Assembly: GCA_026989095.1 (NCBI GenBank)
Contig: JALSKA010000178.1
Location: 1-55,508 of the forward strand
Source of the DNA: Ardenticatenaceae bacterium
Lineage (GTDB): Bacteria; Chloroflexota; Anaerolineae; Ardenticatenales; Ardenticatenaceae
Reading direction: 5' to 3'
DNA: 55,508 nucleotides
Part shown: positions 5,142 through 15,139 of the stretch, one piece after another
Position numbering within the stretch: position 1 is the stretch's first letter
Layout: each line of letters opens with the position of its first letter
Program-made: the position numbers and the translations under genes
The notes under the pieces: model-generated
What the model saw: the letters and a program-made list of their open reading frames with translations, nothing else
Database searches by the model: none
Told to the model about the DNA's origin: nothing

Positions 5142-6206
5142 ATGACGACTTCGGTTGCCACGCAACCCACACCCCAAACAACCGCGCCCGCCGTTCCCAA
5201 GAAACGCCTGCTCACAGGCGACCGCCCCACGGGCAAGCTTCACTTGGGTCACTACGTGGGCTCGCTCCGAAACCGGGTGGCCCTCCAGGACGACTACGAC
5301 GCCTACTTCCTGATCGCCGACCTCCACACCCTCACCACCAAGCCCACGAAAGAGGACATCGCCCGCATTCCCGAGCACATCCGGGAGATGGTCCTCGACT
5401 ACCTGGCCGTGGGCATCGACCCAGAGAAGAGCACCATCTTCGTGCAGTCGGCCATTCCGGGCACCTACGAGCTCAACCTGATCTTCGAGATGTTGGTCAC
5501 CGTGCCCCGCTTGGCCCGCCTGCCCTCGATCAAAGAGATGGCCCGGGCTGCCATGATCGACGAGGAGGCCATCCCCTTCGGCCTGCTGGGCTACCCGGTG
5601 CTCCAGGCGGCCGACATCCTGCTGCCCCGCGCCGAGATCGTGCCCGTGGGCAAGGACAACGTGGCCCACGTGGAGATCACGCGGGAGATCGCCCGGCGCT
5701 TCAACCACCTCTACGGCCGCGTCTTCCCGGAGCCCCAAGCCCTCGTGGGCGAGGAGCAGACCCTAGTGGGCATCGACGGCAAGGCCAAAATGAGCAAGTC
5801 CCTCAACAACGCCATTTTCCTCAGCGACGACGAGCAGACCGTCAACCAGAAGGTGCGGCGCATGTACACCGACCCCAAGCGCATCCGGGCCGACATCCCC
5901 GGCACCGTGGAGGGCAACCCCGTCTTCATCTACCATGACCTCTTCAACCCCGACAAGGAGGAGGTGGAGGACCTGAAAGAGCGCTACCGCCAGGGGCGGG
6001 TGGGGGACGTGGAGGTGAAGAAGAAACTGGCCCGGGCCATCAACAATTTCCTCGACCCCATCCGTGAACGGCGCGCTCGCTTTGCCCAACAGCCCGGCCT
6101 CATCGAGGAGATCCTCCACGAGGGCAACCGCAAGATGCGCCACGTGGCCGCGGAGACCATGGAGCTGGTGCGCGAGGCCATGGGCCTGACCTATTTCCGA
6201 ACATAA
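5142..6206 (+). CDS. trpS: Tryptophanyl-tRNA synthetase
   Basis: This class I synthetase charges tRNA-Trp. The HIGH-type motif is HLGH at residues 34-37 and KMSKS is at 216-220. The length of 354 residues fits the bacterial family, with about 20 extra Thr/Pro/Ala-rich residues at the N-terminus. AAGGAGGTGA precedes the ATG. Its place as the second gene of the trp operon is unusual and puts it under the same Trp T-box, so low charging of tRNA-Trp would raise both the amino acid supply and the charging enzyme. Confidence 0.97.
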
Positions 6207-7874: not shown

Positions 7875-8669
7875 ATGGCGGCCAAGACGATCCTCGAACG
7901 CATCGTCCGCTGGAAACACGACGAAATCGAGCGCCACAAGCACAGGCGGCCGCCGGAGTTGGTGCGTGCCGAGGCGGCCATGGCCCCACGGCCGCGCGAC
8001 TTCGAGGCCGCGTTGCGGGGGCCGGGCGTCGCCCTCATCGCCGAGGTGAAGCGGGCCTCGCCCAGCAAGGGCCTGCTGCGCCACGACTTCGACGCCGTCG
8101 GGCTGGCCCGCGCCTACGAGGCCAACGGCGCCGTGGCCATTAGCGTGCTCACCGACCAGCACTTCTTCCAGGGCAACATAGGCCACCTGCAAGCCGTGCG
8201 CCGGGCCGTGCGGCTTCCCGTCTTGCGCAAGGATTTCATCCTGGACCCCTACCAGGTCTACGAAGCCCGGGCCGCTGGCGCCGACGCCGTGCTGCTCATC
8301 GTCGCTGCCTTGGGCGACACAGCCCTGGCCGAGCTCCACGAGCTCGCGCGCGAGCTGGGCATGGCCGCCCTGGTCGAAGTCCACGACGAGGCCGAGTTGG
8401 AACGGGCCCTGCGGCTCTCCCCCACGCTCGTCGGCATCAACAACCGGGACCTGCGCACTTTTCAGGTGGACTTGAACACCACCGCCCGCCTGCGTCCCCT
8501 CATTCCGGCCGGCACGCTCGTGGTGGCCGAGAGCGGCGTTCACACGGCCGCCGACGTGCGCCGCCTGGCCGAGATGGGCGTGGACGCCATGCTCGTGGGC
8601 GAGGCCCTGGTGCGGGCCAAGGACGTGGACGCCAAAGTTCAGGAGCTGGCTTCGGCCGGCAGAAGTTGA
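7875..8669 (+). CDS. trpC: Indole-3-glycerol phosphate synthase
   Basis: TrpC closes the indole ring from CdRP with loss of CO2. The 264-residue TIM barrel has IAEVKRASPSKG (the catalytic Lys pair), SVLTDQHFFQG, VLRKDFILDPYQVYEARAAGADAVLLI, GINNRDLRTF and VAESGV. It is monofunctional, since trpF is separate downstream. The ATG follows the trpD stop by three bases with little Shine-Dalgarno sequence, so it may depend on coupling. Confidence 0.96.
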   Translation: MAAKTILERIVRWKHDEIERHKHRRPPELVRAEAAMAPRPRDFEAALRGPGVALIAEVKRASPSKGLLRHDFDAVGLARAYEANGAVAISVLTDQHFFQGNIGHLQAVRRAVRLPVLRKDFILDPYQVYEARAAGADAVLLIVAALGDTALAELHELARELGMAALVEVHDEAELERALRLSPTLVGINNRDLRTFQVDLNTTARLRPLIPAGTLVVAESGVHTAADVRRLAEMGVDAMLVGEALVRAKDVDAKVQELASAGRS

Positions 8670-8687
8670 GGTTGAGGAGGAGCGCTC

Positions 8688-8822
8688 ATGGAGAACAACA
8701 GCGGAATCCTGGCCGGCATCATCGCCGGCGTGATCGCCCTCGCCGTGGGCACATCCCTGTGCATTGTCATCCTGCTGATCGCCTCCCAGGCCGAGCCCGT
8801 GCGCTCCCTGCTGGGGCTGTGA
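8688..8822 (+). CDS. Small single-span membrane protein within the trp operon
   Basis: A 44-codon gene lies between trpC (18 bases) and trpF (40 bases). It has one of the best ribosome-binding sites of the operon, GAGGAGGAG five bases ahead of the ATG. The predicted protein starts with MENNSG and continues with one hydrophobic span at about residues 7-33. Gly10 and Gly14 form a GxxxG helix-packing motif, Cys25 sits in the span, and a short polar tail (QAEPVRSLLGL) follows. I recognise no family and know of no trp-operon protein of this kind. It could be a transport accessory, a regulator of a Trp permease or a general membrane peptide. The coding call rests on the start signal, the clean hydrophobic profile and codon use like its neighbours. 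Confidence 0.72.
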   Translation: MENNSGILAGIIAGVIALAVGTSLCIVILLIASQAEPVRSLLGL

Positions 8823-8862: not shown

Positions 8863-9546
8863 ATGACGCGCGTGAAAGTCTGCGGCATCACCACCCTTGA
8901 GGACGCGCTGGCCGCCGCGGCCGCCGGCGCCGACTTCCTGGGCTTCATCTTCTACGACAAGAGTCCCCGCTTCATCGCGCCGGAGCGGGCTGCTGCCATC
9001 GTGCGCGCGCTTCGGGAGGAGCTGGGTTCCCGCTGTCCGCGCACGGTGGGCGTCTTCGTGGACGCGCCCGTCGAGGAGGTGCGCGCCACCCTCGACACCG
9101 TGGGGCTCGACCTGGCCCAACTCCACGGCAGCGAGCCCCCTGCGGAGGTGCGCCAGCTCCGCCCGCGGGCCTACAAGGCCATTCGCCCCCAAGCGCGCGG
9201 CGACGCCGAGGCGGCCCTGGCCCTCTACTACGACACCATGCCCCAGGACGAGAGCGTGCCCCAACTGCTCATGGACAGCTACCACCCCTGGCTCTTCGGG
9301 GGCACGGGCATCATGGCCGACCTGGCCGTCGCCATGCTGGTGGCCCGGCGCGTGCGCCTGATGCTGGCCGGCGGGCTCACGCCCGAAAGCGTGGGCGAGG
9401 TCATCCGCCGGGTCCATCCCTGGGGCGTGGACGTGGCCGGCGGGGTGGAGCGCGCCAAGGGCATCAAGGACCACGCGCGCCTGCGGGCCTTCGTCGAGGC
9501 CGTGCGGCGGGCCGACGCCGAACAGGAGGCCGGAGGAACGCCGTGA
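8863..9546 (+). CDS. trpF: Phosphoribosylanthranilate isomerase
   Basis: TrpF catalyses the Amadori rearrangement of PRA to CdRP. The 227-residue barrel has VKVCGIT with the catalytic Cys7, LGFIFYDKSPR, VGVFVD, LDLAQLHGSE, the aspartate in LLMDSYH, LAGGLTPE and GVDVAGGVE. The last is a variant of the usual DVSSGVE. It is slightly longer than the usual 200-210 residues. GGAG lies seven bases ahead of the ATG. The stop overlaps the GTG of the HIT gene. Confidence 0.95.
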   Translation: MTRVKVCGITTLEDALAAAAAGADFLGFIFYDKSPRFIAPERAAAIVRALREELGSRCPRTVGVFVDAPVEEVRATLDTVGLDLAQLHGSEPPAEVRQLRPRAYKAIRPQARGDAEAALALYYDTMPQDESVPQLLMDSYHPWLFGGTGIMADLAVAMLVARRVRLMLAGGLTPESVGEVIRRVHPWGVDVAGGVERAKGIKDHARLRAFVEAVRRADAEQEAGGTP

Positions 9547-9971
9547 GGGAGACGTGTACTTTCTGCCGCATCATCGACGGCGTGGAACACGGCGCCTTCG
9601 TCTACGAGGACGAGCTGGTCGTGGCCTTCTTGGACATCAACCAGGCATCGCCCGGCCACACGCTCATCGTGCCCCGGCTCCACGTGGCCGCCTGGTGGGA
9701 GTTGCCGGACGCGGAGGCAGCCGCCGTGGCCCGCGCTGCCAAGCCCATTATGCAGGCCATGCGACAGGTGCTCGAGCCGGACGGCATCAACCTGGTCCAG
9801 AACAACGGCCGGGCCGCCGGCCAAGTCATCTTTCACGTCCACATGCACGTCATCCCGCGCTGGCAGGGTGACCGCCGCTTCGGCCGGCCGCCGGCCTACG
9901 CCGACCGGCAAACCCTCGACGAGCGGGCTGCCCAGCTCCGTGCAGCCCTGGACCGGATTCGACATGCTTGA
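9543..9971 (+). CDS. HIT family nucleotide hydrolase/transferase
   Basis: This 142-residue histidine-triad protein has an N-terminal CTFC metal pair and the catalytic HVHMH motif (His98, His100, His102). Such Hint-like enzymes hydrolyse AMP-lysine and other nucleoside phosphoramidates, including aminoacyl-adenylates released by tRNA synthetases. Its presence between trpF and trpB, in an operon that also contains trpS, makes clean-up of tryptophanyl-AMP an attractive inference but no more than that. The GTG start overlaps the trpF stop by four bases. Confidence 0.93.
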
Positions 9972-11199: not shown

Positions 11200-12023
11200 A
11201 CAGCCTCGAGACAACGTTCAACCGCCTGCGAGCCCAAGGGCGCGCAGCCCTGATGCCCTTCATCACCATGGGCTTCCCCCGGCGCGAGAGCGCCTTCGAG
11301 CTGGTGCCCGCCCTCGTCGATGGGGGCGCCGACATCATCGAGCTGGGCGTGCCCTTCAGCGACCCCCTGGCCGACGGCGCTACCGTCCAGGCGGCCTCCC
11401 AGCAAGCCCTCCAGAACGGCATGACCCTGGCCCGCTGCCTCGATCAGGCGGCCGAGCTGCGCTCGTGCGGCGTCCGCGCGCCCTTCGTGCTCATGGGCTA
11501 TTACAACCCCATCTTCCAGATGGGCGAGCACACATTTGCCCAACGTGCCGCCGAAGCCGGGATCCAGGGGGTCATCGTGCCCGACTTGCCCCCCGAGGAA
11601 GGCGACACCCTCCAGGCCACCCTGCGGGCCCACGGGCTCGACCTCATCTTCCTGCTCGCCCCCACCTCGGACGAGACTCGCGTGAAGCTGGTGGCCCGTC
11701 GGGCGTCGGGTTTCATCTACCTCGTCTCCCTCACCGGCGTCACGGGCGCGCGCGATCAGCTTCCCCCCGACCTGGAGAAGTTCGTGGCCCGCGTGCGCCG
11801 GGCCACGTCCCTGCCGCTGGCGGTCGGCTTCGGCATAGCCCGGCCGGAGCACGCCGCCCACGTGGCCCGCGTCGCCGACGGCGTGATCGTGGGCAGCGCG
11901 CTCCTGAAGGTCATCGAGACGGCCAGCAACCCTGTGGCCGCCGCACGCCAGTTCGTGGCCGAGCTGCGCGCCGGCATCGAGGCCGCCCGTGCTGCCCGGC
12001 CGGATGAGTTCCCCAGGGGTTGA
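11196..12023 (+). CDS. trpA: Tryptophan synthase alpha chain
   Basis: TrpA cleaves indole-3-glycerol phosphate and channels indole to TrpB. The 275-residue barrel keeps the catalytic residues at canonical positions, Glu49 in [10 protein letters not shown] and Asp60 in PLADG. It also has [16 protein letters not shown], the phosphate-binding [10 protein letters not shown] and [11 protein letters not shown]. It is the last gene of the operon, and a perfect hairpin follows 67 bases after the stop. Confidence 0.97.
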
Positions 12024-12030
12024 CAGCCTG

Positions 12031-12039
12031 TGGTATCAT
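12031..12039 (+). promoter_or_regulatory. Possible extended -10 promoter for the secreted protein
   Basis: TGGTATCAT forms an extended -10 element just after trpA. A TTGACA at 12020-12025 is only eight bases away and cannot be its -35 box, so the promoter would rely on the TG extension. The transcript would carry the 12-bp hairpin at 12090-12116 in its leader. Confidence 0.35.
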
Positions 12040-12089
12040 AGGGGTAAAGCCTCTCGTCGCGGCTTCCTCACACCCCCTCTCCTCAATCC

Positions 12090-12116
12090 GGGCAAGACAC
12101 CGGCGGTGTCTTGCCC
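12090..12116 (+). terminator. Perfect 12-bp hairpin after the trp operon
   Basis: Bases 12090-12101 pair perfectly with 12105-12116 around a three-base loop. No T-tract follows, so it may be a weak or factor-assisted terminator, a 3' end protector of the trp message, or a leader element of the next gene. Confidence 0.55.
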
Positions 12117-12166
12117 CCGTGTGGCCGTATGTCGGGAAAACTCGTCAACCCTTGGGAGGTGCTGGC

Positions 12167-15139
12167 ATGGTCAGGCGTTCATCAGTGCTCCTCCTGCCCC
12201 TGCTCATCTCCGCATCCATCTTGCTCCTGGTGTGGGGCACGATCACCTACGCGCAGGGAACGGTGATACAAGAGGGCCCGGCACCGAGCGCAGAGCCTGC
12301 CGGGGTTCCGGCCACCAACAGCGACGCCCCTTTTCTCCTCGTGCTTCCCCTTCCCCGGCTCGACGAGGTGCGGCCTGATGCTCAACCATTTCTGTTCGAG
12401 GCCCTGCTCTTCCAGGCGGCCCAGCCTGTCCTGGAAGAGCTGGCCCGGCTCCAGGCCGAGGGGCTCGTCGCCGACTTCACCCTGTTGCCCGGCGAGCACG
12501 CCGTCCGCGTGACCCCGGCCACGCCGGCCGGCCTCCGCGCGCTGCGCCGGCTCGCCGGTCCCACGGGCCTGGTGCCGGCGACGGACGCCGGCGCGGCCTG
12601 TGCGGCCAAGGCGGCCAAAGCGGCCCTCAGCGCCGTCGAAGGTGCCCTGTGGGCCCAGCAGGCCAGGAGAACGGCTGGGCCGGCGCTGTTGCGCACCCGG
12701 AGCATCACGCTCACCTTGGAGGTCTATGTCCGGCAGGGCTCCCAGTACAGCAGCGTGAACGGGAGCACTCTGCCCAACACGCCGGTCACCATGACGCTGC
12801 GAAGCCCCGACGGCACCGTCAAGGCCACTGAAACCACAACGAGCACGGCGAGCGGTTTCTATTCCTTCAGGCCGACGTGGCAGCCGTGCGAATTCACGTG
12901 GGTGGCCGTCCCGGGCGACACTGTGGAGGTCACCGCGGCCGGCAAAACCATTAGCACCACGGTGGCGCCGATCTCCGCCTTCGCCGATCCCACCAAGAAC
13001 ACCGTGAGCGGCGTCACCGCTCCCAACCGTAACATCTCCATACTTGCCTTTCAGACGAGCGCCGTCTGCGATGTGCCGGGCAGCGGGACGACGACCACGA
13101 GCGACGGCGGCGGCGGGTTCTCGGCCACCGTTCCCGGTGGATTTGACCGCAGCGGCCTTGTGGTGATCTGGGTAGATGATCCCAACGGAGACGCGACAAC
13201 GTCGACTGTCATTGAACCGCCCTACCTGAGAGTTGGGAACGACGGCACGTTTGTCAGCGGGGCCTTGCGGCCTCGCTCTGGCTTCGTGGCCACCCTCAAG
13301 CGCGGGAGCACTGTCATTTCCCAAGTCGATGGGTCTACGGGCCAGTTGGGCTGGTTCTACACCAGTTTCACCCAGACGGCACAGACTGGCGACATTATCG
13401 AAGTTGTCGGGGGCGATGTGGTCGTCACCACCACCTTCGTCTCGCCGCGCAGCCTCATGTTCGACCCCGACAACGACCGCATCACCGGCACTATCGACAC
13501 AGAGGGTGCCGGCCGGCGCATTCGCTTCCGCCTCACCAACCGGCTTGCCCCCACGTGGAAAAGCGGCTGCGCCGACACCACCGTGAATGCCGACGGGAGC
13601 TTCGTCCTGGACTTCGCGGCAGGCGGATACGACGTGCAACGGGGAGATACGATCTTCTGGTTTGGTGCGTCCGTGTACGACGATCAAGGCAACTCGCAGC
13701 AGCTCACCCGCCAGGGCGCCGTCCCCTATCTCGAAGTGTACCCCGGCCAGCGCCTCATCAAAGGTTATTGGCTGATGCCCGCCTCCCCCATCACCCTCAC
13801 CCTGTGGAGCTCAGGGGGAATGCTCAAATCCAGGGTCACCGCACAGGCCTCTTCGTGGAGCTCCTCCTTCCAACATCAGTTCACGAGCACCATCAAGGCC
13901 GGCGACCGCGTCGCCGTGAGCGACGGCGCCGTCACCATGACCGTCTCCTCCGTGCCCACCCTGACGGCGCTGCTCGACGCGGGGGCCAACACCGTCTCGG
14001 GGGCCGCGCCCACCGGGAGTTCCCTCGTCGTCCAAGTCACCGCTGCGGACGTGGGGCTCGACGGGCCCACCTCCTCCTTCCTCGTCTACACGCCCACGGT
14101 CTCGGGCGGCCGGTACTCGGTGGACCTGAGCGATGTGGACGTGAAGTCCCAGAGCGAGGCGGACGTCTTCTTCCGGGAGCCGGGCGGCCACATCGTGAGG
14201 GCCTACAGCCACGCTTTGGACCTCAACGTCGAAATCGACGACGAGGACACGGCCACGATTTCGGGGTACGTCCCGAAGCCCGAATCCCCGGTGATCGTGG
14301 AGCTGCGGCGGGGCGGCACAGTGCAGCAGGTCATCACCCTCACCGCGAGCTGGGACGGGTTCTTCTCCTGGTCACCGACTGGGAAAGCCCTGCCCGGAGA
14401 TGTGATCGGCGTGAGGCCGGTGGGAGTGCCCTCCGACAGCGTGTCCATTCCGACTTTGACCGTCCAGGATGACCCGGCCAACAACCGGGTGACGGGCAAG
14501 GCGCCCGCCAATGGCCTGCTGGAAGTCGCCTTGGGCACGTATAGCCGGTACATGTGGTGGGAGTGGACCACCTTCCTCCAGGCCGCCGCCGATGGCACCT
14601 ACGCGGCCAATTTCGACGGCCTCATTTCCTGGCCGGAGTGCCGCGAAGCGCAGGTGGGGCAGTGTACCCGGTCGAAAGTCACCTACTACACGGACGAGGG
14701 GTACGCCATCTCGCGCTTGGGGACCCCGCCCCCCGACGTGAGCCCCGACGCCTACGAGGACGACAACACGTTCACCTCCGCCGTGCCCTACACGGGAATC
14801 CAATCCCGCACCCTGCACGCGGTGACCGACACGGACTGGATCTCCTTCACCGTGGGCGCCCAGGACGTGGGCATCACCCTCACTCTGATGACGGTCAATC
14901 TGGGCCCCAACGCCAACACTGTCCTCTACCTCTACGACACGGACGGCACTACGCTGTTGGCCAAGGATACCTCGGCAACGCCGAGCTCCCAGATCGTGTG
15001 GAGGCCCACGGCGCCGGGCACGTATTATGTCAAAGTTGCCCCGTATAGCACGCTCTACACCCAAGTGTGCGGGGCCACGTATGACTTCTTCATCGCGCGA
15101 TACCGGGTCAACCTCCCGCTGGTCGCACGCCAGCAATAG
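12167..15139 (+). CDS. Large secreted protein with repeated beta-sandwich modules and C-terminal PPC-like domain
   Basis: This 990-residue protein starts with a signal peptide (MVRR, hydrophobic core at about 7-24, likely cleavage after TYA at 29). No catalytic motif is visible. The body contains recurring modules with the pattern D-x-x-x-N-x-(V/I)-(S/T)-G-x-x-x-P, for example DPTKNTVSGVTAPN, DAGANTVSGAAPTG and DDPANNRVTGKAPAN, consistent with Ig/carboxypeptidase-regulatory-like sandwiches. About residues 860-980 resemble a bacterial pre-peptidase C-terminal (PPC) domain beginning PDAYEDDNTF. The protein ends NLPLVARQQ, a short LPLV-type tail that I associate with many secreted Chloroflexota proteins. 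It is probably a surface or matrix protein. The ATG at 12167 follows GGGAGGT. Confidence 0.75.
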   Translation: MVRRSSVLLLPLLISASILLLVWGTITYAQGTVIQEGPAPSAEPAGVPATNSDAPFLLVLPLPRLDEVRPDAQPFLFEALLFQAAQPVLEELARLQAEGLVADFTLLPGEHAVRVTPATPAGLRALRRLAGPTGLVPATDAGAACAAKAAKAALSAVEGALWAQQARRTAGPALLRTRSITLTLEVYVRQGSQYSSVNGSTLPNTPVTMTLRSPDGTVKATETTTSTASGFYSFRPTWQPCEFTWVAVPGDTVEVTAAGKTISTTVAPISAFADPTKNTVSGVTAPNRNISILAFQTSAVCDVPGSGTTTTSDGGGGFSATVPGGFDRSGLVVIWVDDPNGDATTSTVIEPPYLRVGNDGTFVSGALRPRSGFVATLKRGSTVISQVDGSTGQLGWFYTSFTQTAQTGDIIEVVGGDVVVTTTFVSPRSLMFDPDNDRITGTIDTEGAGRRIRFRLTNRLAPTWKSGCADTTVNADGSFVLDFAAGGYDVQRGDTIFWFGASVYDDQGNSQQLTRQGAVPYLEVYPGQRLIKGYWLMPASPITLTLWSSGGMLKSRVTAQASSWSSSFQHQFTSTIKAGDRVAVSDGAVTMTVSSVPTLTALLDAGANTVSGAAPTGSSLVVQVTAADVGLDGPTSSFLVYTPTVSGGRYSVDLSDVDVKSQSEADVFFREPGGHIVRAYSHALDLNVEIDDEDTATISGYVPKPESPVIVELRRGGTVQQVITLTASWDGFFSWSPTGKALPGDVIGVRPVGVPSDSVSIPTLTVQDDPANNRVTGKAPANGLLEVALGTYSRYMWWEWTTFLQAAADGTYAANFDGLISWPECREAQVGQCTRSKVTYYTDEGYAISRLGTPPPDVSPDAYEDDNTFTSAVPYTGIQSRTLHAVTDTDWISFTVGAQDVGITLTLMTVNLGPNANTVLYLYDTDGTTLLAKDTSATPSSQIVWRPTAPGTYYVKVAPYSTLYTQVCGATYDFFIARYRVNLPLVARQQ

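Follow-up and report, generated by a model that had tools for sequence, protein, structure and literature searches.

A gene for a predicted small single-span membrane protein is conserved beside trpF in the trp operon of Ardenticatenaceae

Results

The window analysed here (the whole stretch of 55,508 nucleotides from an Ardenticatenaceae bacterium) contains a tryptophan operon in which an open reading frame of 44 codons lies between trpC and trpF. The features around it are as follows.

7875-8669, + strand: trpC, indole-3-glycerol phosphate synthase (PF00218, E=4e-93), the upstream neighbour of the small ORF in the window's genus
8674-8682, + strand: Shine-Dalgarno sequence GAGGAGGAG, read directly, 5 nt ahead of the ATG at 8688
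8688-8822, + strand: small ORF of 44 codons, with an ATG start and a TGA stop
8863-9546, + strand: trpF, phosphoribosylanthranilate isomerase (PF00697, E=1.7e-39), the immediate downstream neighbour in all five genomes that carry the small ORF
9543-9971, + strand: HIT-domain gene (PF01230, E=1.1e-27), between trpF and trpB

The initial annotation had placed a small membrane protein gene between trpC and trpF and had credited it with a ribosome-binding site at good spacing; the Pfam matches on either side and the sequence ahead of the ATG bear out both statements, and a G/A-rich Shine-Dalgarno sequence precedes the ATG in every one of the five orthologs. Translation of 8688-8822 on the + strand gives MENNSGILAGIIAGVIALAVGTSLCIVILLIASQAEPVRSLLGL, followed by the stop. 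The peak Kyte-Doolittle hydropathy of the 44-residue protein (19-residue window) is 2.74, and AlphaFold2, run with a four-sequence input, returns one helix over residues 2-41 with a mean pLDDT of 84.7, outside of which charged residues are few. With fewer than about 50 residues and one predicted hydrophobic helix of membrane-spanning length, the protein has the size and the architecture by which small single-span membrane proteins are recognised. What had been described as a clean 27-residue span is indeed a strongly hydrophobic helix, but the wording was slightly generous, since residues 7-33 include G, T and S. The GxxxG motif, on the other hand, proves to be stronger than was claimed: it is a glycine zipper, GxxxGxxxG, formed by G6, G10 and G14, and these residues, together with A13, A17 and C25, do not vary among the five orthologs, a comparison of five sequences from one family of which three are close. 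Transmembrane helices often carry GxxxG patterns, which are not proof of pairing. The C-terminal tail differs between the two genera, reading AEPVRSLLGL in one and YGSQVLGQ in the other.

A scan of the 55.5-kb window for ORFs of 35-70 aa with a Shine-Dalgarno sequence, an ATG start and a hydropathy peak (KD19) of at least 2.5 returned this ORF only, and the same scan of 60 first-order Markov random windows returned none. The gene had also been called too short for the usual gene callers. Short genes are penalised by such programs, but the lower limit of Prodigal is 90 nt and a gene of 135 nt is callable.

Five Ardenticatenaceae genomes, belonging to two genera, have the small ORF intact and immediately upstream of trpF, and none of the copies shows the frameshifts or stops that had been named as refuting the gene. 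Three copies belong to the window's genus (the window itself and two others at 93% identity) and two, 65-68% identical over residues 1-34, to a second genus. Another genome of the same family (G003) has no detectable copy, and trpF was likewise not found there; in the one genome of the same order that was examined (G006), trpF is present and the small gene was not found. Among 396 sampled genomes of the same class and 400 of the phylum there was no credible homolog outside the family. The two best matches outside the family were rejected as distant homologs, since the match in G175 (L059) is antisense to a 468-aa ORF that encloses it on the opposite strand, and the one in G599 (L080) covers the transmembrane portion of an ORF of 105 aa whose tail is unrelated. 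Viral contigs gave no relative, and the small protein found no match in Pfam, NCBIfam, PHROGs or the PDB; its best Pfam score, to DUF2964 (E=0.056), is 14.1 bits against a cut-off of 24.2, and NCBIfam gave no hit. The small protein is thus very probably, judging from these sequence comparisons, a lineage-restricted family of 40-44 aa found so far in Ardenticatenaceae.

The gene order in the family is trpE-(trpS)-trpG-trpD-trpC-(trpS)-small gene-trpF-HIT-trpB-trpA, where the brackets mark the two positions of trpS: trpE and trpG flank it in the window and in G002, whereas in the second genus it separates trpC from the small gene. Since the position of trpS varies, it is trpF rather than trpC that is the constant neighbour of the small gene. 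Both the HIT gene and the small gene stand beside trpF in the family's loci, and neither was detected in the outgroup loci of G006, G008 and G054. In the window's genus a gap of 16-42 nt separates the small gene from trpF; in the second genus the small-gene stop either overlaps the trpF start (ATGA, in G005) or ends 3 nt before it (in G004), which suggests translational coupling of the two genes there. No promoter-like or terminator-like site was found between 8500 and 9000, and an Rfam search of the window matched no family. The small gene is probably co-expressed with trpF.

Two further observations concern the operon. The first concerns trpS, seen at 5142-6206 of the window and at L052:156-1061: the genes of the window and of G002 are only about 37% identical to those of G001 and of the second genus, and this divergence, taken with the differing position in the operon, suggests a gene replacement. 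After trpA, the window carries a 1039-aa ORF (12020-15139) that looks like a secreted, repeat-rich protein.

Selection on the small ORF was assessed from pairwise dN/dS (Nei-Gojobori), the comparison among relatives that had been proposed as a check on the gene. The values are 0.09 (G000/G002), 0.11 (G000/G001) and 0.15 (G002/G001) in the window's genus and 0.045 (G004/G005) in the second, and these within-genus values lie at or below those of trpF and trpC, which are 0.12-0.24 in the same genomes of the window's genus. Three of the pairs were put to Fisher tests of synonymous versus nonsynonymous changes, which gave p = 9e-5, 2e-7 and 2e-10. Substitutions at codon positions 1, 2 and 3 number 1, 0 and 13 between G000 and G002 and 5, 2 and 19 between G004 and G005. 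The spacers on either side have diverged more than the ORF, with identities of 0.56 and 0.11 for the 5' spacer and 0.67 and 0.40 for the 3' spacer, against 0.89 and 0.79 for the ORF. The 5' spacer of G001, 167 nt long, is unrelated. The opposite-strand mirror frame, which shares its third positions with the gene, is open across the small ORF in all five genomes. Its dN/dS values (0.17, 0.44, 0.46 and 0.17) exceed the sense values (0.09, 0.11, 0.15 and 0.045) in every pair, and the + strand reading is therefore the constrained one. We reject an antisense gene on this ground, and also because the Shine-Dalgarno sequence, the conserved start and the helix all belong to the + strand.

Elsewhere in the class, a membrane protein of another kind occupies the same slot: four other Anaerolineae genomes carry, between trpC and trpF, a gene for a 241-aa DUF554 (PF04474) protein, identified by Pfam in L030 and L032 and by resemblance in L038 and L049.

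L030:754-1479, DUF554 gene
L032:735-1460, DUF554 gene
L038:761-1486, DUF554 gene, counted along the trp operon strand
L049:723-1448, DUF554 gene, counted along the trp operon strand

The likeness to the small protein lies in a membrane protein occupying the same operon slot. The DUF554 proteins, at 241 aa, nevertheless have no detectable similarity to it (hhalign probability 0.2%), and this result gives no support to a derivation of the small protein from DUF554 or to its membership in that family. DUF554 also occurs in the five genomes that have the small gene, but at other places. In G003 (L074), a gene for an MscL-like channel, identified by eye, directly follows trpC.

Discussion

The initial annotation proposed a genuine gene for a single-span membrane protein within a trp operon, and the conserved position together with purifying selection strongly supports that proposal. 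We regard it as highly probable, on the comparative evidence, that this is a real and translated small membrane protein gene, and its product is very probably a single-span protein of the inner membrane, as predicted.

What might such a protein do? The account that we favour, tentatively and at a little under an even chance, is that its helix works on a partner, with a function tied to the expression of the operon. The small gene would be co-transcribed with trpF and the protein made in step with TrpF; the flat face of glycines and alanines formed by G6, G10, A13, G14 and A17 may then pack the helix against a second copy of the same protein, or else against some larger protein integral to the membrane. 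A role of glycine zippers in helix packing is treated in literature cited in PMC4523740. By analogy with the action of AcrZ on AcrB (PMC10710835), the stability or activity of the partner would be adjusted whenever the operon is expressed.

The main rival, unlikely on balance, is that the gene is a passenger, encoding a membrane protein for an unrelated process, whose place in the operon is a legacy of inherited gene order and which has no part in tryptophan physiology. It owes this standing to the unrelated membrane genes that occupy the slot elsewhere, namely DUF554 (L030, L032, L038 and L049) and, beside trpC, the MscL-like gene (G003); the operon also holds a HIT-domain gene and a trpS of varying position. 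However, adjacency to trpF has been kept across two genera despite the move of trpS. The same fixed adjacency in all five genomes, even with trpS between trpC and the small gene, would fit a peptide that recruits TrpF or a complex of Trp enzymes to the membrane, an idea raised at the outset that we rate as the least probable of those weighed here: the protein has little sequence beyond its helix, and its C-terminal tail differs from one genus to the other, which leaves little conserved surface for a soluble enzyme.

A device of another kind is a minicistron, in which ribosomes load on the strong Shine-Dalgarno sequence and reinitiate on trpF, so setting the dose of TrpF, while the peptide is incidental. 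Two features speak for such coupling: each of the five genomes has a ribosome-binding site ahead of the ORF, and in the second genus the stop and the trpF start overlap or are 3 nt apart. But a pure coupling device has no need of the strong purifying selection seen on the amino-acid sequence, and the gap of 16-42 nt in the window's genus also argues against it; we hold this reading very improbable. About equally doubtful is the tuning of a transporter for tryptophan or aromatic amino acids, the other role first suggested. Co-location with trp genes favours it, and transporters modulated by small single-span proteins have been described (PMC10710835). It is weakened, however, by a search for the two dedicated Trp permease families, TrpP (PF17099) and Trp_Tyr_perm (PF03222), both of which were absent from all seven genomes searched, the family's among them, while control genomes gave matches. 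Improbable, too, though slightly less so, is a dedicated membrane protein made in amounts that follow those of TrpF, by which tryptophan synthesis is linked to a membrane process; if this were true, the unrelated DUF554 genes in the same slot would indicate that such a connection of TrpF with the membrane recurs within Anaerolineae.

More generally, the locus presents a well-supported and unclassified small-protein family in an operon that would not be expected to include a membrane protein, and the lineage has a cultured member in Ardenticatena maritima (PMC4591325). As a side lead, other members of the class have an unrelated membrane protein in the corresponding slot.

Among known systems, trpL leader peptides are, like the small ORF, short and associated with a trp operon. 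The small ORF, however, has no Trp among its 44 residues and lies inside the operon rather than before trpE; for these reasons, and given that neither a terminator-like site between 8500 and 9000 nor an Rfam match in the window was found, we reject a leader peptide of Trp attenuation. In the literature that we searched, no small membrane protein is described from a trp operon. The genes for KdpF and CydX stand next to those of the complex to which each protein belongs, whereas the small gene has no adjacent membrane partner gene. Furthermore, in contrast to AcrZ, MgtS, KdpF and CydX, the small protein reached no Pfam or NCBIfam model and matched no solved chain. Yet in its length, its single hydrophobic helix and the little that it has outside the membrane, it resembles AcrZ (49 aa), MgtS (31 aa), KdpF and CydX, which are small single-span modulators of larger membrane proteins (PMC10710835, PMC10903887), and we propose that it represents a previously unclassified family within a known kind of protein, that of the small single-span membrane proteins.
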